DNA of 64,000 nucleotides from Octadecabacter sp. B2R22 (lineage in GTDB: Bacteria > Pseudomonadota > Alphaproteobacteria > Rhodobacterales > Rhodobacteraceae). Positions 34,791 to 48,609 of the stretch are shown piece by piece. The notes under the pieces were generated by a model. It worked only from the letters and a program-made list of their open reading frames with translations, made no database searches and was not told the DNA's origin. Within the stretch, counting starts at the first letter, position 1; every line of letters begins with the position of its first letter. The stretch lies in contig NZ_JAHKQJ010000002.1 of NCBI RefSeq assembly GCF_018861045.1, forward strand, positions 248,001-312,000, given 5' to 3'. The position numbers and the translations under genes were made by a program.

Positions 34791-36101
34791 CTAACGGCCA
34801 AGAATTCTATCCATCCCGTCGCGCAGCGTCATGGCGGGCGCAGCAAGGGGCAGAAGTTTCGATGTGACACCGTGAAATGGAATAGGTTTGACGGGACTGA
34901 CGGGGAACGGCAATTCATCATCGCGGCCACCCAGTGCTTTATGCACCAGACTGCGCGCCATCACGGACGTCATTGCGATACCACGACCACTAAATCCAAG
35001 GCCCGCCAGAACACCGGGCTGGGGTTCATGCAAATGGGGCATCATTTCGGGCGTCACGCCAATTCGGCCTGACCACGAGGTTTCAATTTCGGTTTCGCCC
35101 AGTTGCGGGAACACTGTGGTCAGCCCGCGTTGCAACCGTTTCAACCCACCCAATGTTTCCATTTTTTCGGGGTCGCTGCCAACACAGCCGAAAATCAGGC
35201 GGTGATCGCGGTCATAGCGGCCAAAATAGATCGCACGGCGGCTGTCGGAAATGGTGACGCCATTGGGCAGCACCGACTTTCGCAAATTGTCGCTCAGCGG
35301 TTCCGTGACCAACGCCACGCTGACCATCGGATAAAGCGTTTTGCGCAAGCCCTTTTGTAGATCATCCGTATAGGCATTGGTGGTCAAGATTACCTTCCCT
35401 GCCAAAACCGAACCCGTGGGTGTGGTGACCTGCCACTTGTCCCCGACCTGCTCCATGGACTGCACAGGCGCGTTTTCATAAAGTTTCGCACCGAACTGTT
35501 GCGCCGTGCGGGCAAATCCGCGCGTTAAGGACAGGGGCTGGACGTGGCCGCCCTTGGGGTGGAACAACGCGAAAGTATACGCCTCTGATCCACAGCGCCG
35601 CGCGACCTCTGCGTCTTCAAGGATTTCAATTTGCCCACCAGCTGCGTTCCAGCCTTCGGACAGCGCTCGCAAGGATCGTGCTTGGGACGGGCAATGCGCG
35701 GCTTGAACCCAGCCGTTTTGCTGCGCGTCACATTCAATCTCGTAATTGCGGATGTCATCAAACAAATCGTCGGCGCACGAGAGCGTTGTGGCGACAAGCC
35801 GTTCTGCAACGCCGCCGCCAAGACGTTGCGCCAGATCATCCGGCGTCGCCCGCCAGATCGGGTTGCACTGCCCGCCACTGCGCCCTGACGCCCCCCAACC
35901 AATTTCCTTTGCCTCAAGCAAAGCAACGCTCGCGCCGCTTTGCGCCAGACCAAGGGCGGTGCGCGTGCCAGTCAAACCGCCACCAATGACAACGAAGTCC
36001 ACCGATACCTGACCCTCCAGCCGCAGCGCCAGTGGTTTTGGCGTCGCGGTGCGCGCCCAATGGATGACATCAATGTTCTCAGGGGCCGGTGACTTTGCCA
36101 T
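34791..36101 (-). CDS. FAD-dependent amine oxidase, PuuB/DAO family
   Basis: A protein of 436 aa. Rossmann motif VDFVVIGGGLTGTRTALGLA at residues 28-50, followed by EIGWGASGRSGGQCNP, which is typical of gamma-glutamylputrescine oxidase-like enzymes, and a C-terminal GLGFSGRGIAMTSVMARSL. It would oxidatively deaminate a primary or secondary amine. The start at 36101 (MAKSPAPEN) has GGAG 9 bases upstream; the Met five codons earlier overlaps that site. A 17-base box at 36120 lies in its leader. Cotranscribed with the cupin gene. Confidence 0.85.
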   Translation of the reverse strand: MAKSPAPENIDVIHWARTATPKPLALRLEGQVSVDFVVIGGGLTGTRTALGLAQSGASVALLEAKEIGWGASGRSGGQCNPIWRATPDDLAQRLGGGVAERLVATTLSCADDLFDDIRNYEIECDAQQNGWVQAAHCPSQARSLRALSEGWNAAGGQIEILEDAEVARRCGSEAYTFALFHPKGGHVQPLSLTRGFARTAQQFGAKLYENAPVQSMEQVGDKWQVTTPTGSVLAGKVILTTNAYTDDLQKGLRKTLYPMVSVALVTEPLSDNLRKSVLPNGVTISDSRRAIYFGRYDRDHRLIFGCVGSDPEKMETLGGLKRLQRGLTTVFPQLGETEIETSWSGRIGVTPEMMPHLHEPQPGVLAGLGFSGRGIAMTSVMARSLVHKALGGRDDELPFPVSPVKPIPFHGVTSKLLPLAAPAMTLRDGMDRILGR

Positions 36102-36119
36102 CTGATGATACTCCAAATT

Positions 36120-39051: not shown

Positions 39052-39945
39052 CTAATCTCGTTGATGCTTTGTCTGTTCAAGCAGCCAATTCTTTAAGAAT
39101 GATGCTGCGGATGACCCCGAGGTATTCTTGTCCAATCCGATTTCGTACCAGATGCAACGAATACTTCGTGGATCCATGCGAACCAGCCGTCCCGACAGTA
39201 TTTCTCGCTCGCATAGGATCTTGTCGGCAAGGATAACCCCTTCTCCGTCCGCCGCCGCGTCAATTGCGAGAGAAAGATCTGAGTAGACCTTGCCCGCGTT
39301 CCAGCCAGTGCTTTCCGGCTCATGGGCCGCATACCATTTATGCCAGGTCTCTTTTCCATTGTCGTGGATGAGAATCGCGCTGCTCCAATCAACTTTGGCA
39401 TCCTGCGACGAAAGTTTTGCGCTCAAGTGCGGTGTCGCGGCCGGAAAGCCGTCAATCGGAAATAATCTGTCCTTTGTCACACCACGTCCCGGCAACCGGG
39501 TCTCAAAGTGAATGACGATATCGGCATGTCCTTCCCCAATCTGTGCCGGAGTCCACGCCGGCCGCAGATCGACGTCTATTCGCGGAAAGAGACTGCAAAA
39601 TTCGGTTATGCGCTTGCGCAGCCAGAGCGAGGCAATCGCAGGTTCCGCGCTGACAACCACTGTGCCGGTCCGTGTTTTTCGCAGCAGGGTTTCGCTTGCA
39701 TCTGTCAGCGTTTGCAGCCCGCTCGCGATTTGCGGAAGCAAGGTCCGCCCATTTTCGCTCAACTCGACCCGGTTGCGGTGTCTGATGAAAAGATCGGTTC
39801 CGAACCAAAGCTCCAGATTTTTGATATGCTGACTGACAACACTGTGGCTGACGTTCAGTTCGCTTGCCGCTTTGGCAAAACTAGAATGCCGTGCAGCGGC
39901 CTCGAAGACCCTAAGTGCATTGAGGTGGCGAAGCGTGTTTCCCAT
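39052..39945 (-). CDS. LysR-family transcriptional regulator, GcvA-like
   Basis: A protein of 297 aa. The N-terminal winged helix reads RVFEAAARHSSFAKAASELNVSHSVVSQHIKNLE, and the effector domain contains RIDVDLRPAWTPAQIGEGHADIVIHF, typical of the GcvA-like group. It is divergent from the ABC transporter operon at 40063 with a 117-base region between them, so it most likely regulates module B in response to the imported compound. Confidence 0.88.
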   Translation of the reverse strand: MGNTLRHLNALRVFEAAARHSSFAKAASELNVSHSVVSQHIKNLELWFGTDLFIRHRNRVELSENGRTLLPQIASGLQTLTDASETLLRKTRTGTVVVSAEPAIASLWLRKRITEFCSLFPRIDVDLRPAWTPAQIGEGHADIVIHFETRLPGRGVTKDRLFPIDGFPAATPHLSAKLSSQDAKVDWSSAILIHDNGKETWHKWYAAHEPESTGWNAGKVYSDLSLAIDAAADGEGVILADKILCEREILSGRLVRMDPRSIRCIWYEIGLDKNTSGSSAASFLKNWLLEQTKHQRD

Positions 39946-40062
39946 TATTCTAGCGTAGGTAAAAGCTTCGCTGAGCGCAAGTTAAACGCGCTTTCTAGGC
40001 TTGGGATTTAGTTGTTAGCCTCGGATCAGCAAATCAGTCACTTAAGCCGCACAGGAACCCGT

Positions 40063-40857
40063 ATGAACGCTGTTTCGACCTCTGCCGACACGAACGTCTC
40101 GCTTGGCGTCAATGATCTTCACAAGTCATTCGGAACGCATGAAGTCCTTAAGGGTGTTTCGCTGGAGGCACGCGAAGGTGACGTCATTTCATTGTTGGGC
40201 TCTTCTGGATCAGGGAAAAGCACGCTCTTGCGGTGCGTCAATATGCTGGAAACGCCGACATCCGGCCAAATATCCGTCCACGGTGAGGTCATCAAGATGA
40301 CCCAAGATCGCGGTGGCATAGCCCGGCCCGCGGACCCCAGGCAGGTGGAGCGCATCCGCGCAAGACTGGCAATGGTGTTTCAGTCCTTCAATCTCTGGTC
40401 TCACATGACTGTCATGGAAAACGTCATCGCAGGGCCAATCCATGTTTTGAAACAATCGCGCGCCGAGGCCATCGAAAATGCCAAGGGCGTGCTTGAACGC
40501 GTCGGCATGTACGAGCGTCGCGACTATTACCCGGCGCATATTTCAGGCGGTCAACAGCAGCGTGCGGCCATTGCCCGCGCGCTTGCCATGGAGCCCGAGG
40601 TGATGCTGTTCGATGAGCCGACCTCTGCTCTTGATCCCGAACTTGTGGGAGAGGTTTTGAAAGTCATTCGCTCACTGGCAGAGGAAGGGCGCACCATGTT
40701 GGTTGTGACACATGAGATGGCATTCGCACGAGATGTCTCATCCAACGTGATATTCCTCCACCAAGGCCTAATCGAAGAGCAAGGCGTGCCCAAGCAAATG
40801 TTCACGGATCCAAAATCCACGCGCTTCAAGGAATTTCTATCCAATACCCGACACTAG
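40063..40857 (+). CDS. Polar amino acid-type ABC transporter ATPase (HisP/GlnQ family)
   Basis: A protein of 264 aa. Walker [14 protein letters not shown], signature [15 protein letters not shown] and Walker [15 protein letters not shown]. The insert with [13 protein letters not shown] between Walker A and the Q-loop is typical of HisP/OccP-type ATPases. The ATG at 40063 has an AGGAA site; the open frame runs 17 codons further upstream without one. It starts a four-gene importer (ATPase, binding protein, two permeases). Confidence 0.92.
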
Positions 40858-40917
40858 GCCGCGAGGCTGTGCAGCACGCATTCACAAACTAAACTAAGTC
40901 CACAAAGGGGAAATCAA

Positions 40918-41688
40918 ATGACACTCAAAAACAAACTTCTCGCGTCCACAGTTGGTGCAATTGCACTGATGGCAGGAATGGCGACAGCAGAACCATTGCG
41001 GATCGGCGTGGAAGGCGCATACCCTCCGTTCTCGCAAAAGGAAGCTGACGGGTCTTTGTCTGGCTTCGACATCGATATCGCACTTGCCCTGTGCGCAGAG
41101 CTGGAACGCGAATGCGAGCTGGTCGAGCAGGAGTGGGATGGCATGATCCCGGCGCTGATCGCAAACAAATATGATGCGATCGTCGCTTCCATGTCGATCA
41201 CCGAAGATCGCCTTCGCTTGGTCGACTTTTCCGAAAAATATTATCAGACACCATCGCGGTTCGTCGCGGCGGAAGGTGCAACATTCGAACTGACACCAGA
41301 AGGTACCGCAGGGCTGAAGATCGGCGTACTGCGCGGCACCACATTGCAATGTCATGTGGAAAAGGCATTCCCTGACGCTGACTTGCGCCTCTACAACACG
41401 CAAGAAGATGTGTTTGCAGATCTTGTCGCCGGACGTCTGGACATGCAGTTGAACAATACGCTTCAGGCCATCGACGGTTTCCTCAACACCCCACAGGGTG
41501 AAGGGTTCGCGTTTCTTGGCGACAATGTCGATGATCCAGAATGCCTTGGCGAGGGGACCGGCATCGCGGTGCGCAAAGGCGACGAGCTGGCGGCCGAGTT
41601 GAGCACGGCAATTGCGGCGATCCGCGCTGATGGCACCTATGCGGCGATCAACGACGCCTATTTCGACGTCGACATTTACGGCGAGTAA
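40918..41688 (+). CDS. Polar amino acid-type periplasmic binding protein
   Basis: A protein of 256 aa with a signal peptide (cleavage near ATAEP) and the SBP_bac_3 fold: LRIGVEGAYPPFSQKEADGSLSGFDIDIA, then EWDGMIPALIANKYDAIVASMSIT and a C-terminal RADGTYAAINDAYFDVD. Close relatives bind lysine, arginine, ornithine or octopine. In this operon the ligand may be a guanidino or ureido compound, which is inference from the downstream enzymes. A GGGG-rich site precedes the ATG. Confidence 0.9.
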   Translation: MTLKNKLLASTVGAIALMAGMATAEPLRIGVEGAYPPFSQKEADGSLSGFDIDIALALCAELERECELVEQEWDGMIPALIANKYDAIVASMSITEDRLRLVDFSEKYYQTPSRFVAAEGATFELTPEGTAGLKIGVLRGTTLQCHVEKAFPDADLRLYNTQEDVFADLVAGRLDMQLNNTLQAIDGFLNTPQGEGFAFLGDNVDDPECLGEGTGIAVRKGDELAAELSTAIAAIRADGTYAAINDAYFDVDIYGE

Positions 41689-41703
41689 CCCCGTTACCTG
41701 AGC

Positions 41704-41734
41704 GCGACAGGGAGTCCTCCGGCTTTCCTGTCGC
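41704..41734 (+). promoter_or_regulatory. Intercistronic hairpin after the binding-protein gene
   Basis: GCGACAGGGA and TTCCTGTCGC pair over 9 of 10 positions with an 11-base loop, starting 15 bases after the stop. Such hairpins often protect the upstream message and raise binding-protein levels over the permeases. Confidence 0.5.
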
Positions 41735-41762
41735 AACTTCTCTCAATGTCTGGACAAAGCAA

Positions 41763-42452
41763 ATGGATGTGATCTTCGAGTACAAACAGATCCTGATCGA
41801 GGGCACTTTGGTGACCATCTCGTTGGCTGTTCTGTCGCTGCTTCTGTCTATTGCATTGGGCCTCATGGGGGCCTTTGCAAAACTTTCGCCCAAGCGCGGT
41901 GTTCGACGCGCGGGTGAACTCTATACCCTCTTTGTGCGCAGCGTGCCTGATCTTGTCTTAATGATGTTGATCTTCTACGGCGGTCAAACGTTGATGAGCC
42001 AAATCGGCGCATTGACCGGCCTTTGGGGCTATATCGACATCAACCAGTTCATCGCCGGTGTGCTGACGCTTGGGTTCATCTTCGGCGCTTATATGTCCGA
42101 AACTTTTCGAGGCGCCATCCTTGCTGTTCCGAGCGGCCAGATCGAAGCGGCGAAGGCTGTGGGGATGACACCCAGTCAGGTCTTTCGAATCGTCACCTGG
42201 CCGCAAATGGTACGTTTCGCGTTGCCGAGCTTCACCAACAACTGGTTAGTTCTGGTCAAATCTACCGCGCTTGTCTCGGTTATTGGCTTGCACGATCTGG
42301 TTTGGAACGCTTTCACGGCGGGACGGTCTACGCACATGCTCTTTAGCTTCATGATCGCTGTTATGGTTATCTACCTGATCATCACTGGTCTGTCTGATGT
42401 GATCCTGCGGGCGGTTGACCGCAAGTACGCCGCTGGCGTGAGAAAGGCCTAA
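41763..42452 (+). CDS. Polar amino acid-type ABC permease (HisQ-like)
   Basis: A protein of 229 aa with about five membrane helices. The HisQ-type start ILIEGTLVTISLAVLSLLLSIALG and the EAA loop (IEAAKAVGMTPSQVFRIVTWPQM) that docks the ATPase are visible. FVRSVPDLVLMMLIFYGG matches the family. Translated just ahead of the HisM-like permease (4-base gap). Confidence 0.9.
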   Translation: MDVIFEYKQILIEGTLVTISLAVLSLLLSIALGLMGAFAKLSPKRGVRRAGELYTLFVRSVPDLVLMMLIFYGGQTLMSQIGALTGLWGYIDINQFIAGVLTLGFIFGAYMSETFRGAILAVPSGQIEAAKAVGMTPSQVFRIVTWPQMVRFALPSFTNNWLVLVKSTALVSVIGLHDLVWNAFTAGRSTHMLFSFMIAVMVIYLIITGLSDVILRAVDRKYAAGVRKA

Positions 42453-42456
42453 GGCG

Positions 42457-43242
42457 ATGGAACCTGAACAGAGTTTTTACGACTACCTGAAGAACATCAG
42501 TGAAACTCAGTCACCAATCGATTTTGTCCTGATCTATGACAACCTCGACCGGTTCGTTGACGGCGCGTTGGTCACGTTGCAACTCACATTCCTCGCGCTT
42601 CTTGTCGGGGGGATAATCGCGGTGCCGTTGGCCATTGCACGCGCATACCGCAAGCCGTTCCTAAGCCCCGCAATTCGTGTCTACACCTATGTTTTTTGCG
42701 GCACGCCGCTTCTGGTGCAGGTTTATCTATTCTACTTCGGCCTTGGCCAGTTCACGGCCGTGCAAGAAAGCTTCCTTTGGGATCCGATCCTCAGCAGCCC
42801 GTGGTGGTGCGTGATGATTGCTTTCACCTTGAATACAGCAGCCTATACCACTGAATTTCTGCGCGGTGCGATCGAAACCACACCCCACGGTGAGGTCGAG
42901 GCCGCAAAGGCATGCGGCATGTCACCCTATGCGCGGATGCGGCTGGTGGTTCTGCCGAGTGCCTTCCGCCGCGCGCTGCCTGCCTACTCGAACGAGGTCA
43001 TTTTCACGCTGCACGGCTCCGTGATAGCGAGCACGGTGACGTTGCAAGACCTTTTGGGCGTCGGGCGCTGGCTGAATGGCCGCTATTACCTCGCCTACGA
43101 AGGCTTTCTAACCGCGATGGTGTTCTACATGGCCATTGTTTTCATGATCACCTTCGCGTTCCGGCTGGCCGAAAAGCGCTTCCTTGGCCATCTGCGCCCG
43201 CGAGAAACACCACAACCCGGCGCAGCAAGAGTTGCCGCCTGA
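42457..43242 (+). CDS. Polar amino acid-type ABC permease (HisM-like)
   Basis: A protein of 261 aa with about five membrane helices. FVDGALVTLQLTFLALLVGG, the FCGTPLLVQVYLFYFGLGQ stretch and the EAA loop (VEAAKACGMSPYARMRLVVLPS) identify it as the second permease of a His/Lys/Arg/opine-type importer. It completes the transporter begun at 40063. Confidence 0.9.
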   Translation: MEPEQSFYDYLKNISETQSPIDFVLIYDNLDRFVDGALVTLQLTFLALLVGGIIAVPLAIARAYRKPFLSPAIRVYTYVFCGTPLLVQVYLFYFGLGQFTAVQESFLWDPILSSPWWCVMIAFTLNTAAYTTEFLRGAIETTPHGEVEAAKACGMSPYARMRLVVLPSAFRRALPAYSNEVIFTLHGSVIASTVTLQDLLGVGRWLNGRYYLAYEGFLTAMVFYMAIVFMITFAFRLAEKRFLGHLRPRETPQPGAARVAA

Positions 43243-43292
43243 GCCAGACCTCCGCATCCCAATCATATTATCTGTTAACGAAAGGCCTCACT

Positions 43293-43928
43293 ATGACCGC
43301 TTCGAAGAAACGTGACCTAATCGAAGGGCGCGCCGCGCTCATCGTCATCGACATCCAGAAATCGACCTTCGCCCCCATTCCTGATGACAAGCGCGCGATT
43401 GCCCATATGCCAGACTACGCAGAGCGTATGGCGCGTTCAAAAGAGGCCATAGACAAGGCACGCGAGGTCGGAATTCCGGTGATCTTCATTCAGGAGATCC
43501 ACCGCGCGAATCTAATCGACATGGGGCGCGAAACCGATGGCGATGAAGATGTTCACTGCCTTGACAGCAACCCACTTACCGCCTTCGCTGAAGAAGAACT
43601 CGGCATGCTGCCGGATGATTACCGCATCTCAAAGCGTCGTTATTCCGCGTTTTACGGGACCGACCTGGAAATCCTGCTGAAGGGGCTCAAGGCGGAGACC
43701 CTGATCCTAGTGGGCGGCCTGACTGACGTTTGCGTGCATTACACTTTCGTTGACGCCCATCAGGGCGACTATTTCTGCCGCGTAATCGAAAACTGTGTCG
43801 CCGGCTCTAGCCTGGAGGCGCATCAGGCATCGCTCAACGCGATGGAATACCTGCAGCACGGCGCGATCCGCACCTTGGATGAAGTCCTGTCCGCGATGGA
43901 AAGCAAAGCTGAAACACAGGCCGCTTGA
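43293..43928 (+). CDS. Isochorismatase-family cysteine hydrolase (amidohydrolase)
   Basis: A protein of 211 aa. The triad of the family is present: Asp in LIVIDIQKS, Lys in RISKRRYSAFYGTDLE, and nucleophilic Cys in LVGGLTDVCVHYTFVDA. Members hydrolyse amides such as N-carbamoylsarcosine, ureidoacrylate, biuret or nicotinamide. Placement before two DUF1989 genes and allophanate hydrolase suggests a urea-like amide; a biuret or carbamoyl substrate is inference. The start at 43293 has an AAAGG site; the much longer open frame upstream is a shadow of the permease gene. Confidence 0.85.
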   Translation: MTASKKRDLIEGRAALIVIDIQKSTFAPIPDDKRAIAHMPDYAERMARSKEAIDKAREVGIPVIFIQEIHRANLIDMGRETDGDEDVHCLDSNPLTAFAEEELGMLPDDYRISKRRYSAFYGTDLEILLKGLKAETLILVGGLTDVCVHYTFVDAHQGDYFCRVIENCVAGSSLEAHQASLNAMEYLQHGAIRTLDEVLSAMESKAETQAA

Positions 43929-43931
43929 TTC

Positions 43932-43969
43932 AATCTTGAGGGCGGTCAATCCGGGCTGCCCTCAAGATT
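43932..43969 (+). terminator. Hairpin between the hydrolase and DUF1989 genes
   Basis: A perfect 12-bp inverted repeat (AATCTTGAGGGC, GCCCTCAAGATT) with a 14-base loop is followed a few bases later by a run of six T. It looks like a terminator or attenuator inside the operon. Confidence 0.65.
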
Positions 43970-44003
43970 TCACAATTTTTTCAAATACAAGGAGCCATTC
44001 GTC

Positions 44004-44828
44004 ATGACAGTTCAAACCACCCTGAGCACAGGTGAAACGCCGCAGGAGCGGTATGAGAGGCTGAAGTCCGAAGGGAATGGAGAGGGCGGCGATTTTGCCG
44101 CGCGGCAGTCTGCCGCCCGCGTCCAACCTGTACCGGCCATTGAGGTGTCATCGGTTATCTATGACGATATCGTGCCGAGCAAAGGGTACTGGCACGGCCG
44201 CCTGAAACGCGGCGATGGTTTACGGATTGTAGCCGAAAGCGCGACCGGGGTCGCGGCCTGTTTCTGGCGCAGCGATGAGACCTCTGAACGGTTCAATCCC
44301 GGCGACACGATCAAGGTGCAATGGACCAGCGAGATGACCACGGGCCGTGTCCTTTTGTCGGATATGGGGCGCGCAATGGTGTCGATCACCCATGATGATT
44401 TCGGACGGTCCGACTGTTTGGCCGGTGTATCCTTGCCCGGGCCTGCGGACGGTGGTGATTGGCAGAGCGGGCGCGAACACTTTCTGCGCGCCGCGTTGAA
44501 AAACGGGCTGAGCAAACGCGACGTTGGTCCTTGCATCAGCTTTTTCTCGCCGGTTTCGGTAGACTCTGGCGGACGGCTGTATTGGGAAGATCAAAACAGT
44601 AGCGGTCCGTTTACCGTGGATCTGCGCGCCGAGATGGATCTGATTGTGACCCTGTCAAACTCGGCACATCCAATGTCGCCGGATCGCGAGCCGCTGCCCT
44701 TGGCAGTAACCCAATTTCTTGCGCCGCCCGCCGCGACAGACGATCTCGCCCGCACCGGGACTGTCGAAGCCCGCCGCGCCTTTGAAAATACCGACGCCCT
44801 TTTCGGCGACCGTAAACGCTTGTCATAA
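44004..44828 (+). CDS. DUF1989 protein, carboxyguanidine deiminase-type subunit (UAAP1-like)
   Basis: A protein of 274 aa. The DUF1989 core shows WHGRLKRGDGLRIV, SERFNPGDTIKVQWT, RVLLSDMGRAMVSITHDD and the conserved VDLRAEMDLIVTLSNSAHP. Paired DUF1989 proteins were long annotated as urea carboxylase-associated proteins. Published work on guanidine assimilation assigns such a pair as carboxyguanidine deiminase (CgdAB), producing allophanate and ammonia. It precedes the second DUF1989 gene by 3 bases. No biotin carboxylase of the guanidine/urea type is encoded in the window, so its true substrate source is open. Confidence 0.8.
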   Translation: MTVQTTLSTGETPQERYERLKSEGNGEGGDFAARQSAARVQPVPAIEVSSVIYDDIVPSKGYWHGRLKRGDGLRIVAESATGVAACFWRSDETSERFNPGDTIKVQWTSEMTTGRVLLSDMGRAMVSITHDDFGRSDCLAGVSLPGPADGGDWQSGREHFLRAALKNGLSKRDVGPCISFFSPVSVDSGGRLYWEDQNSSGPFTVDLRAEMDLIVTLSNSAHPMSPDREPLPLAVTQFLAPPAATDDLARTGTVEARRAFENTDALFGDRKRLS

Positions 44829-44831
44829 GGA

Positions 44832-45467
44832 GTGACCCAGATGCTCGACGCCCCCAATCACGCGGACAACCACCACATCCCAGCTAACGTCGGCTGGTCT
44901 GCGATCATTCGCAAAGGTCAGATGATGCGCATCATCGATCTTGAAGGCCAACAGGCCGTTGATACGCTGTTTTACAGCGCCGACGATACGTCTGAACGTT
45001 ACTCGGCCCAAGATACCGTCCTTGCTCAAAAGTCCCCCTATGTCACCGAAGGCTCAGTGCTTCTGTCAAATGAAGGCAACCCGATGATGACGGTTGTACG
45101 TGATGCCGTTGGGGCGCACGACACCTCTGCCGGGGCGTGTTCTTGTGAGGCCAACACGGTCCGATTTGGCCATGAGGTGCGCCATCTGCACGCGTGCCGC
45201 GACAACTTCGTCACAGAGGCCGCCAAGTGGGGCATGGAGAAACGCGACATCGTGGCCAACGTCAACTTCTTCATGAATGTCCCGATTGAGCCCACGGGCG
45301 CGCTGGCCATTTCCGACGGGCTGTCTGCCCCCGGCAATTCTCTGGATCTGCGCGCAGAGATGGATGTGATCTGCCTGATTTCCAACTGCCCGCAGATCAA
45401 CAATCCCTGCAACGGGTTCAACCCGACGCCGGTTAACGTGCTGATCTGGACGCCTGAGGAAGACTGA
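44832..45467 (+). CDS. DUF1989 protein, carboxyguanidine deiminase-type subunit (UAAP2-like)
   Basis: A protein of 211 aa. IIRKGQMMRIIDLEGQQAVDTLFY, SERYSAQDTVLAQ and VLLSNEGNPMMTVVRDAVGAHDTSAGACSCEANTVRF are typical of the second protein of the pair, with clustered Cys/His that probably bind a metal. The pair should form a heteromeric deiminase. It ends 3 bases before the allophanate hydrolase gene. Confidence 0.82.
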   Translation: MTQMLDAPNHADNHHIPANVGWSAIIRKGQMMRIIDLEGQQAVDTLFYSADDTSERYSAQDTVLAQKSPYVTEGSVLLSNEGNPMMTVVRDAVGAHDTSAGACSCEANTVRFGHEVRHLHACRDNFVTEAAKWGMEKRDIVANVNFFMNVPIEPTGALAISDGLSAPGNSLDLRAEMDVICLISNCPQINNPCNGFNPTPVNVLIWTPEED

Positions 45468-45470
45468 CCC

Positions 45471-47255
45471 ATGGATTTACGCCTTTGCGAACTCGCCCGC
45501 CGTTATGCAGGCGGTGAAACCGTCACCTTTGTGATGAAACAGGTCCTTGCCGACTGTGACGCCTACAGCGACCCAGCGGTTTTCATCAAACGGCTGGATC
45601 AAGCTGATGTTCTGGCGCGTTCAGCAGAATTGGACGCTATCGATCCCGCAGACCGCGGGCGACTTCACGGCGTTCCCTTTGCAGTGAAAGACAATATCGA
45701 TGTGGCCGGATTACCGACCACGATGGGCATGGCAGGCGAACAGCCCATAGCCGAACGTACTGCGACGGCGGTGCAACGCGTGCTCGATCAAGGGGCCGTT
45801 CTGATTGGAAAGACCAATTTGGATCAGTTCGCTACGGGGCTGGTTGGTGTCCGATCACCTTATGGCGCACCCCATTCGGTGTTTGATGAAAAGATGATTT
45901 CGGGAGGCTCCAGTTCTGGATCGGGCGTCTCGGTTGCGGCGCATCTGGTTAGCTTTTCTTATGGCACAGATACCGCAGGATCAGGTCGCGTTCCGGCGGC
46001 GTTCAACAATATCGTCGGGGTCAAGCCAACCAAAGGCATGGTTCCGACCACGGGCGTGTTCCCTGCCAACAAAAGCCAGGATTGCCTGTCGGTTTTTGCG
46101 CTGACCGCGAAGGATGCCGATATGGTGCGTGGCATCATTTCAGGTGTAGACGGGGTAGACCCCTTTGCACGTGACGCCGCACCCGTAGGTTTGCCACAAG
46201 ACAGCCTTCGCATTGGTGTGCCAAGCGCCGCTTCGCTTGAATTCTTTGGCGACACACAGGCCGAGGATAACTACGCCGCCGCCTGTGCAGACCTCTCAAA
46301 AGCTGGCTACACACTTGTCCCGTTTGACTTTGACCCCTTCGCCGCAACCGCCCGTATGCTCTACGGCTCGGCTTGGGTGGCTGAGCGTACCCATGCCCTG
46401 AAACCTTGGCTTGATGCATCGCCTGATCCACTGCACCCAATCACCCGCGAGATTGTCGAGGACGGTTTGCAATACAGCGCTGTTGATACGTTCGATGCGA
46501 TATACAAAGCTGCCGAAGCGAAAGTCGCTCTTGATGTGGTTTGGAACGACATCGACGTGATGTGCGTGCCAACCACGCCGTCGTTCTATTCCTTGGCGGA
46601 ACTGGAGGCTGAGCCAATCCAGCTCAACAAACAACTTGGCTATTACACCAACTGCGTCAATCTGCTGGACTACGCAGCGATCGCTGTTCCGGCGGGGTTC
46701 CGCACAGACGGCTTACCCGCAGGTGTCACTCTCGTTGCACCGGCCTTCACGGATGCAGCACTTGCCCGCCTCGGAGGACAAATCCATCAGCTTTTGTCTA
46801 CAACCACCGGGCGGGACCGCCTTACCATTGCTGATCAGGACACGCCGGACGCAGCGGATGAGTCCTACATAGACATCGCCGTTGTCGGCGCTCATTTGAA
46901 GGGTATGCCTTTGAACAGCCAGCTTACAGAACGGGATGGTGTTCTGCGTGAAACCGTTCAAACCTCATCGGAATACAGGCTGTTTGCGCTTGCCGATACA
47001 ACGCCGCCCAAGCCTGGGCTTGTACGTGATCCCGAAAGTGGCGGGGCCGGTATTGAGCTGGAAATCTGGAGGCTCCCTGAAAGCACACTGGGTGGCTTCC
47101 TCAAACTCATTCCTGCGCCGCTTGGCTTGGGGACAATTATGCTTTCCGACGGGCGACAGGTGAACGGATTTATCTGTGAGAGCCGTGCATTAGGAAATGC
47201 CGTGGACATCACAGAATATGGAGGTTGGAAGACCTACCTTTCTAAGACGGCATAG
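45471..47255 (+). CDS. atzF: Allophanate hydrolase
   Basis: A protein of 594 aa. The amidase domain (residues 1-440) has the Ser-cisSer-Lys triad: Lys in VPFAVKDNIDVAGLPT, the serines in SGGSSSGSGVSVA and FSYGTDTAGSGRVPAAFN. The C-terminal domain (ISO: VVGAHLKGMPLNSQL, then GGFLKLIPAPLGLG and EYGGWKTYL) is the one specific for allophanate hydrolases. It degrades allophanate to ammonia and carbon dioxide. The cognate urea carboxylase is not present, so allophanate must come from another reaction, probably the upstream deiminase or hydrolase. Confidence 0.92.
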   Translation: MDLRLCELARRYAGGETVTFVMKQVLADCDAYSDPAVFIKRLDQADVLARSAELDAIDPADRGRLHGVPFAVKDNIDVAGLPTTMGMAGEQPIAERTATAVQRVLDQGAVLIGKTNLDQFATGLVGVRSPYGAPHSVFDEKMISGGSSSGSGVSVAAHLVSFSYGTDTAGSGRVPAAFNNIVGVKPTKGMVPTTGVFPANKSQDCLSVFALTAKDADMVRGIISGVDGVDPFARDAAPVGLPQDSLRIGVPSAASLEFFGDTQAEDNYAAACADLSKAGYTLVPFDFDPFAATARMLYGSAWVAERTHALKPWLDASPDPLHPITREIVEDGLQYSAVDTFDAIYKAAEAKVALDVVWNDIDVMCVPTTPSFYSLAELEAEPIQLNKQLGYYTNCVNLLDYAAIAVPAGFRTDGLPAGVTLVAPAFTDAALARLGGQIHQLLSTTTGRDRLTIADQDTPDAADESYIDIAVVGAHLKGMPLNSQLTERDGVLRETVQTSSEYRLFALADTTPPKPGLVRDPESGGAGIELEIWRLPESTLGGFLKLIPAPLGLGTIMLSDGRQVNGFICESRALGNAVDITEYGGWKTYLSKTA

Positions 47256-47315
47256 CGCGGTCAGGCAACCCGCTCATCTCCCTCCCCGAACTTACGGCAA
47301 CAGAAAGTAACTTCT

Positions 47316-47669
47316 ATGACAACTCCTATATCCCGTTCGCATACCAACGCGCGAATGTCCCAGATCGTTACACATGGTGATACGATCTACTTGGCTGGGC
47401 AGGTTGGCACCCCAAATGAGAGCGTCGCACAACAGACGCGCGATTGCCTTGCTTCGATCGAAAAACTGCTAGCCGAGGCCGGATCGGATCTGTCGCATAT
47501 GCTTCAGGCGACGATATGGCTGGCAGACATGGCTGACTTCGACGAAATGAACGCAGCTTGGGACGCATGGGTCCCTGAAGGCCAGGCACCGACCCGCGCC
47601 TGCGGCGAGGCACGCCTTGCCACACCGGACTACAAAGTTGAGATCATTCTGACCGCCGCACGGAAGTAA
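47316..47669 (+). CDS. RidA-family protein (enamine/imine deaminase type)
   Basis: A protein of 117 aa of the YjgF/YER057c/UK114 fold: NARMSQIVTHGDTIYLAGQVG, DCLASIEKLLAEAGSDLSHMLQATIWLADM and the C-terminal PTRACGEARLATPDYKVEI containing the conserved arginine and glutamate. RidA hydrolyses reactive enamines or imines. In this operon it may remove an imine made by the amidohydrolase or oxidase steps, as RutC does in pyrimidine breakdown; that is analogy. Confidence 0.85.
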   Translation: MTTPISRSHTNARMSQIVTHGDTIYLAGQVGTPNESVAQQTRDCLASIEKLLAEAGSDLSHMLQATIWLADMADFDEMNAAWDAWVPEGQAPTRACGEARLATPDYKVEIILTAARK

Positions 47670-47673
47670 TGGG

Positions 47674-48609
47674 ATGACTGCCAGTATCCCGGTCATTGAT
47701 GCAACGTCTCTTCCAGCTGGTTTTGGTTGGAAAAATGCGGTTGATGCAATTGCGAACGGGCACGAGCGGAGCCCTGCGAAAATCACCGATCAGTTCTTAA
47801 GCCGTGATCGTGATAGCTTCGTAAACCGTGCTGCGTGGATTAATGATTTCGGAATCGGAGTGAAATCCTTCACCGTTTTTCCTGAAAATGCCCAAGTTCA
47901 AAGACCGTCCGTACAGGGCGCAATGCTGATCTTCGACGATAAAACAGGCGCACCACTTGCCGTTGTCGATAGTGGTTTGGTGACTTACTGGAAAACGGCG
48001 GCAGACTCTGTCTATGGCGCGTCTTTGCTGGCCCGCACTGACAGCAAGACCCTTTTGATTATCGGGGCCGGCGTCGTCGCGAACAGTCTCGTCGACGCTT
48101 ATTCAACGCTTTTCCCAGATTTGGCGCACATAATGATTTGGGGGCGGTCCCCTGAAAAAAGCCGCGCATTGGCGTTACGGCACGCCGGCCAAAAAGCAAA
48201 GGTTGAGGCGATTACCGATCTGGAAGCTGGCGTGAAGCAGGCCGACATTATTTCGACCGCGACAATGTCACAAAACCCGATCCTATTGGGGAAATGGGTT
48301 GCGCCCGGCACACATGTCGACCTGATTGGGGCATTCAAGTCTGACATGCGTGAAGCAGATAATGAATTGCTTGGTCGCGCACAAATATGTGTGGACAGCT
48401 TTGAAACCACGCTTGATCATATCGGCGAGCTGCTGATCCCGCTGCGGGAGGGCACGATTTCCAGGTTGGATGTGGTGGGTGACCTCTATGATCTGACCCA
48501 GAAACAAGTTGGCAGGCCTTCACGTGATACCACCACCGTGTTCAAAAACGGCGGCGGTGCGCATCTTGATCTGATGATTGCTAAGGCTTTGTTCGACTGG
48601 CACAGGTGA
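47674..48609 (+). CDS. Ornithine cyclodeaminase/mu-crystallin family protein
   Basis: A protein of 311 aa. The NAD-binding Rossmann segment reads TLLIIGAGVVANSLVDAY. Family signatures are GLVTYWKTAADSVYGASLL, with the catalytic-region lysine, and APGTHVDLIGAFKSDMREAD. The family includes ornithine and other cyclodeaminases and imino-acid reductases. It starts 4 bases after the ridA-like stop and ends module B. The substrate is unknown; a cyclic imine partner of the RidA protein is a reasonable guess. Confidence 0.85.
   Translation: MTASIPVIDATSLPAGFGWKNAVDAIANGHERSPAKITDQFLSRDRDSFVNRAAWINDFGIGVKSFTVFPENAQVQRPSVQGAMLIFDDKTGAPLAVVDSGLVTYWKTAADSVYGASLLARTDSKTLLIIGAGVVANSLVDAYSTLFPDLAHIMIWGRSPEKSRALALRHAGQKAKVEAITDLEAGVKQADIISTATMSQNPILLGKWVAPGTHVDLIGAFKSDMREADNELLGRAQICVDSFETTLDHIGELLIPLREGTISRLDVVGDLYDLTQKQVGRPSRDTTTVFKNGGGAHLDLMIAKALFDWHR

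Follow-up and report, generated by a model that had tools for sequence, protein, structure and literature searches.

A carboxylase-less operon of Octadecabacter and a guanidine-linked family of isochorismatase-fold hydrolases as a candidate source of carboxyguanidine

An operon of Octadecabacter sp. B2R22 (Rhodobacteraceae) carries the deiminase and allophanate hydrolase genes of the guanidine carboxylase pathway with an isochorismatase-fold amidohydrolase, called ISO below, in the place of the carboxylase. It lies in a stretch of 64,000 nucleotides, the window (RefSeq assembly GCF_018861045.1, contig NZ_JAHKQJ010000002.1, positions 248,001 to 312,000), in which ten intact frames follow one another on the plus strand from 40063 to 48609 with intergenic gaps of 3–75 bp. 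We propose that ISO hydrolyses an imported guanylurea-type compound and frees carboxyguanidine directly, which would make the carboxylase unnecessary. To this account of reactions and substrate we give slightly less than even weight.

The route we envisage begins with import of a carboxylate-bearing compound that has a guanylurea-type end, R-NH-CO-NH-C(=NH)NH2. ISO, acting as a cysteine amidohydrolase, would attack the ureido carbonyl, releasing the amine R-NH2 and leaving N-carboxyguanidine, which the CgdA- and CgdB-type proteins would deiminate to allophanate and AtzF would convert, in turn, to ammonia and CO2. The ATP- and biotin-dependent carboxylase would thereby be bypassed. Release of carboxyguanidine by ISO is the most economical reading. 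Direct delivery of that compound would explain why the window has CgdAB and AtzF without a carboxylase, and a guanidine-type waste product of ISO would explain why a guanidinium exporter is found in some relatives that have no CgdAB. Where related clusters have Gdx but neither the deiminase nor AtzF, decarboxylation would yield guanidine, which the cell would export.

Results

Deiminase and allophanate hydrolase genes without a carboxylase

ISO (43293–43928; PF00857, 136.9 bits), the proposed guanylurea-type hydrolase, is followed by genes for the two types of carboxyguanidine deiminase subunit and for AtzF. UAAP1, or UA1 (44004–44828, CgdA type), scores 210 bits against TIGR03425 (cut-off 205.95), a model on which two carboxylase-linked UAAP1 relatives score 233.7 and 211.3. 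UAAP2, or UA2 (44832–45467, CgdB type), scores 324.5 bits against TIGR03424 (cut-off 284.7) and is 57–64% identical to the UAAP2 of four carboxylase operons in the order; for UA1 and UA2 together the range is 40–64%. AtzF (45471–47255), an allophanate hydrolase with a C-terminal AH_C domain, reaches 718 bits against TIGR02713 (cut-off 511) and matches PF01425 and PF21986. An earlier note on this DNA had listed two DUF1989 proteins, an allophanate hydrolase, an importer, an isochorismatase-type protein, a RidA protein and an ornithine cyclodeaminase-like protein; intact frames and family scans bear out every entry.

The same note had found no guanidine or urea carboxylase, and this absence holds across the genome, an assembly of 10 contigs that is not closed and is 99.28% complete. 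The note had named a co-regulated carboxylase gene elsewhere in the genome as what would refute its idea of another entry substrate; a genome-wide search with the urea/guanidine carboxylase model TIGR02712 returned partial matches only, all under the cut-off, and this genome has no CT_C_D domain, whereas 6 of 14 control genomes do. On these grounds a hidden carboxylase can be put aside as far as the assembly allows. Among 390 genomes, a draw from a larger group of the order, five have UAAP2 over the cut-off and five have the carboxylase; four are common to both, and in these the matched stretches of UAAP2 and carboxylase lie 15–16 bp apart. The fifth UAAP2 genome, that of the window, is alone among the 390 in having UAAP2 over the cut-off but no carboxylase.

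The gene set is not a product of chance, as it recurs in two relatives. In Loktanella sp. PT4BL (L105) the whole operon is present, with its RidA gene and its gene of the ornithine cyclodeaminase (OCD) family, and in Epibacterium ulvae 4A10 (L106) it is present from LysR to AtzF. Neither genome has a carboxylase over the cut-off; the genome of a further ISO locus searched alongside them, L178, does. Comparison of the window with L105 and L106 places ISO, UA1, UA2 and AtzF under purifying selection (dN/dS 0.04–0.21).

ISO and characterized isochorismatase-fold hydrolases

Isochorismatase-fold ureide hydrolases act through a thioester and leave an N-carboxylate product, converting biuret to allophanate and triuret to carboxybiuret (PMC7948467). 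Guanylurea hydrolase has the same fold (PMC9800807), and isochorismatase-fold biuret, triuret and guanylurea hydrolases are described from nitrifiers, in which guanidine genes are reported absent (PMC12625717). ISO belongs with the isochorismatase-like proteins by its PF00857 domain and a putative Asp-Lys-Cys triad. The residues D20, K114 and C147 are invariant in 19 aligned sequences, conservation having been examined over 120 relatives, and form a putative catalytic triad, assigned by analogy with TrtA. A stretch around residues 78–90 is conserved as well.

Placement of ISO as a biuret hydrolase was rejected: it scores 59.8 bits against NF050097, where the cut-off is 370, and has Tyr at the position of BiuH K145. 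That Tyr was also considered as a sign of guanylurea activity and discarded as not diagnostic, because the putative nicotinamidase 3s2s has it too. The Rut pyrimidine pathway likewise joins an isochorismatase-fold ureide hydrolase, RutB, and a RidA protein, RutC, in one operon. Here the likeness ends, since ISO scores 52.6 against a RutB cut-off of 377.95 and the RidA protein of the window 34.3 against a RutC cut-off of 169.1.

Guanidine features around ISO genes

Relatives of ISO came from three sources: genomes of the order, where 49 of the 390 gave a match at E <= 1e-30 and 49 places besides the window's own were fetched; plasmid records, of which 8 of 11 were fetched; and named genome contigs, with 80 kept of 133. 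Merging identical ISO genes gave 126 loci, the window included, several of them cut by contig ends. With identity thresholds of our own setting, which miss the exporter-like gene of one locus (L062) whose riboswitch is counted, a guanidine feature (Guanidine-II-like motif, Gdx, guanidine hydrolase, deiminase or carboxylase) lies near 34 of the 126. The controls were 40 regions of 19.5 kb at arbitrary positions in ISO-bearing genomes; five of them have at least one such feature under a looser motif rule. Gdx accompanies 16 of the 126 ISO genes and is found in a single one of the 40 controls, while UA1, UA2, carboxylase and GdmH occur in no control. For a riboswitch-like motif the counts are 16 of 126 ISO loci, searched up to 1.2 kb upstream of the gene, and 4 of 40 controls, searched over their whole length on both strands.

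Rfam recognizes a Guanidine-II aptamer at gathering score in 13 of the 37 ISO-related loci scanned. By batch the counts were 1/7, 0/7, 6/8, 6/8 and 0/7; the 16 loci of both 6/8 batches had been preselected by the motif scan, and the 21 others, scanned regardless of motif, include one with a Guanidine-II aptamer at ISO and three with a Guanidine-I aptamer beside a GdmH operon. At five loci (L071, L073, L076, L077 and L176, the last from Roseibium) the motif starts 64–71 nt before the ISO match, and since the match begins at ISO residue 1 or 2, no gene lies between them; Rfam confirms the aptamer in three of the five, those with a start 64–66 nt away. Falsiruegeria mediterranea (L181) has the order aptamer-Gdx-ISO. 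The aptamer and exporter of L078 are directed away from ISO. One genome (G082, with loci L045 and L070) has two ISO genes, one in an import operon and the other behind a Guanidine-II riboswitch and Gdx.

A PotD-type importer is present in 14 loci, six of which also have GdmH (L082, L087, L089, L090) or the carboxylase (L081, L178). The GdmH-like protein of L087 matches PDB 7esr, which we take to be the Synechocystis guanidine hydrolase, with 546 bits, and Guanidine-I aptamers accompany three of the four GdmH loci. Eleven of the 14 (L081–L090 and L178) encode a 2OG-Fe oxygenase, Pfam-checked in L081, together with a protein of about 244 aa, next to ISO, that has an invariant D-x-R and, in the one scanned (L083), no Pfam match. 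These may be MgdH and the N-(hydroxymethyl)guanidine lyase MgdL, respectively. MgdH and MgdL (D49, R51) convert methylguanidine to guanidine (PMC12508155).

ISO is thus a guanidine-linked family, the link being seen in the gene surroundings and riboswitches of some of its members. The suggestion, made in the earlier note, of another entry substrate that yields carboxyguanidine, biuret or allophanate directly gains support from the ISO relatives that lie beside guanidine riboswitches, Gdx, guanidine hydrolase and carboxylase-pathway genes. Of the products it named, carboxyguanidine fits best and biuret is disfavoured by the low biuret-hydrolase score; the probable nature of the substrate is taken up below.

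Other neighbours of ISO were also recorded. In L055, L056, L057 and L091, ISO stands between a PLP gene resembling ornithine decarboxylase (by eye) and a DUF1989 gene (DUF1989 checked in L091), a further tie between ISO and DUF1989. In L113, a Boseongicola metagenome-assembled genome (MAG), ISO and EamA follow a ureohydrolase-family gene (PF00491) and an apparent glycine-betaine-type ABC importer, and a second Boseongicola MAG (L117) has a similar ureohydrolase match at the same distance.

The importer and its candidate substrates

Four genes at the head of the operon encode the ABC importer: a HisP-like ATPase (40063–40857; Pfam ABC_tran; NCBIfam HisP 371.5 bits, under the cut-off of 466), a periplasmic binding protein of lysine/arginine/ornithine (LAO) type (40918–41688; SBP_bac_3, with PDB matches to LAO and HisJ) and, by family scans, HisQ-like (41763–42452) and HisM-like (42457–43242) permeases. 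The importer is HisJ/ArgT-like, with scores under the cut-offs of those models. A binding protein of this cationic-amino-acid type lies near ISO in 23 of the 126 loci. Among these 23, long-type ornithine cyclodeaminase is found in 11, RidA in 7, a Gdx-type exporter in 6 and UAAP1 with UAAP2 in 3; Gdx and UAAP1/2 occur together in none of the 126. In the binding proteins, Asp161 (LAO numbering), which in LAO binds the alpha-ammonium group, is replaced by Asn in 20 of 23 aligned sequences, and Arg77, Ser70, Ser72 and Thr121 of the carboxylate site are kept. As the alpha-ammonium Asp is replaced while the carboxylate site stays, gongrine or an N-acylated form would be favoured as ligand.

The best-fitting natural compounds would be gigartinine, L-alpha-amino-delta-(guanylureido)valeric acid, or gongrine, gamma-(guanylureido)butyric acid, both abundant in red algae; in Gymnogongrus flabelliformis guanylurea amino acids are reported to make up 48.3% of total organic nitrogen, with seasonal swings (PMC13208526). 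Citrullinyl-arginine is another red-algal compound (PMC10817618). Two plasmid hosts of a related cluster are recorded as isolates from marine algae. The amine R-NH2 would be ornithine from gigartinine, whose linkage is that read from the compound name rather than from a structure drawing, and 4-aminobutyrate from gongrine.

Gigartinine fits the ornithine/proline genes of the related clusters because its hydrolysis would give ornithine, which OCD-type genes, RidA and the reductase would carry on to proline. Related clusters that lack the deiminase repeatedly carry OCD and RidA genes, which suggest an ornithine/proline branch. A Roseovarius plasmid whose host came from marine algae has the order ISO-EamA-OCD-Gdx-RidA-reductase, Sulfitobacter sp. 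CW3 has ISO-EamA-Gdx-RidA-reductase, and in L098 both long-type ornithine cyclodeaminase and SugE/Gdx exceed their cut-offs. CtlX, a citrulline hydrolase, lies between EamA and ornithine cyclodeaminase in L099 (a Yoonia plasmid, marine algae source), where it is over its cut-off, and in L115 (Aliiruegeria haliotis).

The window operon ends with a RidA-family enamine/imine deaminase (47316–47669; PF01042, Ribonuc_L-PSP/RidA) and an OCD/mu-crystallin family protein (47674–48609; PF02423). For the latter the best model is pyrroline/piperideine-2-carboxylate reductase, NF004793, at 269 bits still under its cut-off of 322, and the protein fails the ornithine cyclodeaminase model NF005762 (70.7 against 350 bits). 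Outside the operon, the window genome does have a step from ornithine to proline, in an ornithine cyclodeaminase over the NF005762 cut-off (561 bits) that is encoded beside an arginase-family gene (C7:597735–599686).

Origin of the deiminase block

In a tree of 122 rows (121 ISO and one GuuH outgroup) the three ISOs of this operon type with UAAP form one clade (support 100/97), nested among ISO rows whose clusters lack UAAP; the ISO of L178, which has a UAAP2-like gene and the carboxylase, falls elsewhere. The stretch from ISO to RidA, filled in the window by UAAP1-UAAP2-AtzF, holds EamA, OCD and/or Gdx in relatives. Because the three UAAP-linked ISOs form a single clade within a deiminase-less set, the block has the look of a later arrival, inserted between ISO and the RidA-OCD end. 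On small numbers, enzymes that consume a waste product may at that point have replaced a guanidinium exporter for the same product. Against L106, the segment 44832–47255 shows a dS of 0.16 for UA2 and 0.26 for AtzF, and the transporter genes 0.85–1.8; the low values suggest that the UA2-AtzF segment moved between lineages recently.

Regulatory region and surroundings

A LysR-type regulator (39052–39945, minus strand; Pfam HTH_1 and LysR_substrate) is divergent from the operon, and a LysR gene of the same kind lies near ISO in 20 of the 23 loci with the cationic-amino-acid-type importer. The divergent promoter region contains a LysR-operator-like dyad, AGCGTAG-N7-CTTCGCT (39952–39972). Its first arm is identical in 11 of 14 aligned intergenic regions, in two of which the second arm varies; the remaining three rows are cut at a wrong start or cover the dyad in part. 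An Rfam scan of the window gives no match at gathering score, and hence no guanidine riboswitch.

Between 34791 and 38515 lie genes for an FAD-dependent oxidoreductase (DAO; 34791–36116, on the strand opposite the operon), an NMT1-type binding protein and an EamA transporter, an 83% relative of which sits downstream of the reductase gene in L044 and L109. Opine catabolism also uses a HisJ-type importer and ornithine cyclodeaminase. As an account of the operon it was set aside, there being no oxidase in the operon and no obvious role for an isochorismatase-fold enzyme; the DAO-type gene nearby leaves it a slight probability. The genome encodes two more DUF1989 proteins, at C7:1225331–1225873 (L093) and C4:92718–93221 (L092). 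One is 61% identical to the ISO-linked DUF1989 protein of L091 and lies near genes resembling an ArgE-type peptidase and a Pot-type ATPase, and the other forms part of an 814 aa frame, possibly of TMAO-demethylase type.

Discussion

Several observations weigh against the proposed release of carboxyguanidine from an imported guanylurea compound. ISO shares only 27.6% identity with the one guanylurea hydrolase of plasmid pMET-2 that has been tested, and the reported product of guanylurea hydrolase is guanidine (PMC9800807). In the PotD-type clusters, which have MgdH/MgdL-like genes, the product may be free guanidine or methylguanidine, and 92 of the 126 ISO loci show none of the scored guanidine features. 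With regard to the substrate, the change of Asp161 to Asn tells against gigartinine or any other plain L-alpha-amino acid; and if the carbamoyl group of gigartinine were on the guanidine end, ISO would give arginine rather than carboxyguanidine. Finally, the deiminase block is not tied to a RidA/OCD end, given that in L106 there is no RidA gene in the approximately 450 bp left after AtzF, where the record ends.

In the alternative that we consider unlikely yet the most serious, ISO is an acylguanidine hydrolase within a wider guanidine economy and releases free guanidine, and the deiminase and AtzF either use carboxyguanidine formed otherwise or have some other guanidino compound as their substrate. 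The neighbours of ISO relatives would suit this: Gdx and Guanidine-II riboswitches at some loci, and at others GdmH, the carboxylase or MgdH/MgdL-like genes, which handle free guanidine or methylguanidine. However, a carboxylase would be needed to make carboxyguanidine from free guanidine, and the window, L105 and L106 genomes have none over the cut-off, yet keep the deiminase and AtzF under purifying selection.

That ISO hydrolyses plain guanylurea as a functional analogue of GuuH, with an importer for guanylurea itself and RidA and OCD as bystanders, is in our view improbable. The GuuH enzymes are isochorismatase-fold guanylurea hydrolases, and an Aminobacter Gdx pair was shown to expel guanylurea (PMC9800807). 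Nevertheless, the binding protein keeps a LAO carboxylate site, of no use to guanylurea, ornithine cyclodeaminase lies near 11 of the 23 ISO genes with this importer, and ISO is not an orthologue of the tested pMET-2 enzyme.

We think it equally improbable that the operon serves ordinary free-guanidine use through an unrecognized carboxylase, or that its deiminase genes are idle leftovers of a carboxylase operon that came to lie within an amino-acid operon. The 40–64% identity of UA1 and UA2 to those of carboxylase operons in the order and the unclosed genome would suit either version, but three genomes keep the trio intact and under constraint, the window genome lacks a CT_C_D domain and the window a riboswitch, and the importer is of cationic-amino-acid type. 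The weakest alternative, in which the deiminase turns a guanylurea compound into biuret and ISO, as one of the isochorismatase-fold biuret hydrolases that are known to feed AtzF (PMC7948467), converts biuret to allophanate for AtzF to finish, is very improbable indeed in view of the 59.8 bits of ISO against a cut-off of 370, the Tyr at the second active-site Lys of BiuH, and the presence of AtzF near only 4 of 126 ISO genes.

Set beside known systems, the proposed route to carboxyguanidine most resembles the guanidine carboxylase pathway (Gca/GC, CgdAB, AtzF), with which the operon shares CgdA-, CgdB- and AtzF-type proteins over their cut-offs and an ABC importer in one operon. It differs in having an isochorismatase-fold hydrolase in the place of the carboxylase, none being found operon- or genome-wide, an importer of cationic-amino-acid type, and LysR instead of a guanidine riboswitch, a frequent though not universal element of that pathway. 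The metformin/guanylurea route of Pseudomonas mendocina also has an isochorismatase-fold hydrolase, GuuH, and ISO is here proposed to act on a guanylurea bond upstream of CgdAB and AtzF; unlike the window genome, those strains also use the carboxylase (PMC9800807), and the pMET-2 enzyme is far closer to biuret hydrolase than ISO is. With BiuH and TrtA, ISO shares the fold, the putative D-K-C triad and, as proposed, an N-carboxylate product, which in the case of biuret hydrolase feeds AtzF; BiuH differs in the K145 position and in a family cut-off that ISO falls far below. The MgdH/MgdL operon of Vreelandella boliviensis is another case of extra enzymes feeding a guanidine pathway and has its likeness in the 11 PotD-type ISO clusters with the oxygenase and D-x-R protein. 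Such genes are not in the window operon, and the legend to the Vreelandella operon lists no isochorismatase-type gene (PMC12508155).

A search of the open-access literature, most subscription papers lying outside it, returned no paper that joins guanidine, riboswitch and isochorismatase, or guanidine riboswitch, hydrolase and nicotinamidase. Passages of two papers that mention gigartinine (PMC13208526, PMC10817618) contain nothing on its bacterial breakdown, and none of those on the deiminase, allophanate hydrolase or guanylurea describes CgdAB without a carboxylase (PMC9800807, PMC12186494, PMC11399263, PMC11647477, PMC12508155, PMC12625717). Guanidine riboswitches are widespread, yet reviews still describe where guanidine comes from in nature as obscure or an open question (PMC7266159, PMC12186494). 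The window operon would be a guanidine carboxylase pathway in new form, and its hydrolase family a candidate natural source of guanidine.

More tentatively still, we suggest that ISO is a widespread family, in part under guanidine-riboswitch control, that frees guanidine or carboxyguanidine from natural guanylurea compounds and acylguanidines, and that in Octadecabacter it gives ATP-free entry from red-algal gigartinine or gongrine, a natural guanidine source for marine bacteria; this wider claim is possible rather than probable. A family that lies partly behind guanidine riboswitches, beside exporters and degraders, and in marine import operons offers a concrete and testable source of guanidine. 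If the proposal is correct, entry into the carboxyguanidine pathway requires neither ATP nor biotin, and bacterial nitrogen use would be linked to one of the main forms in which red seaweeds store nitrogen.

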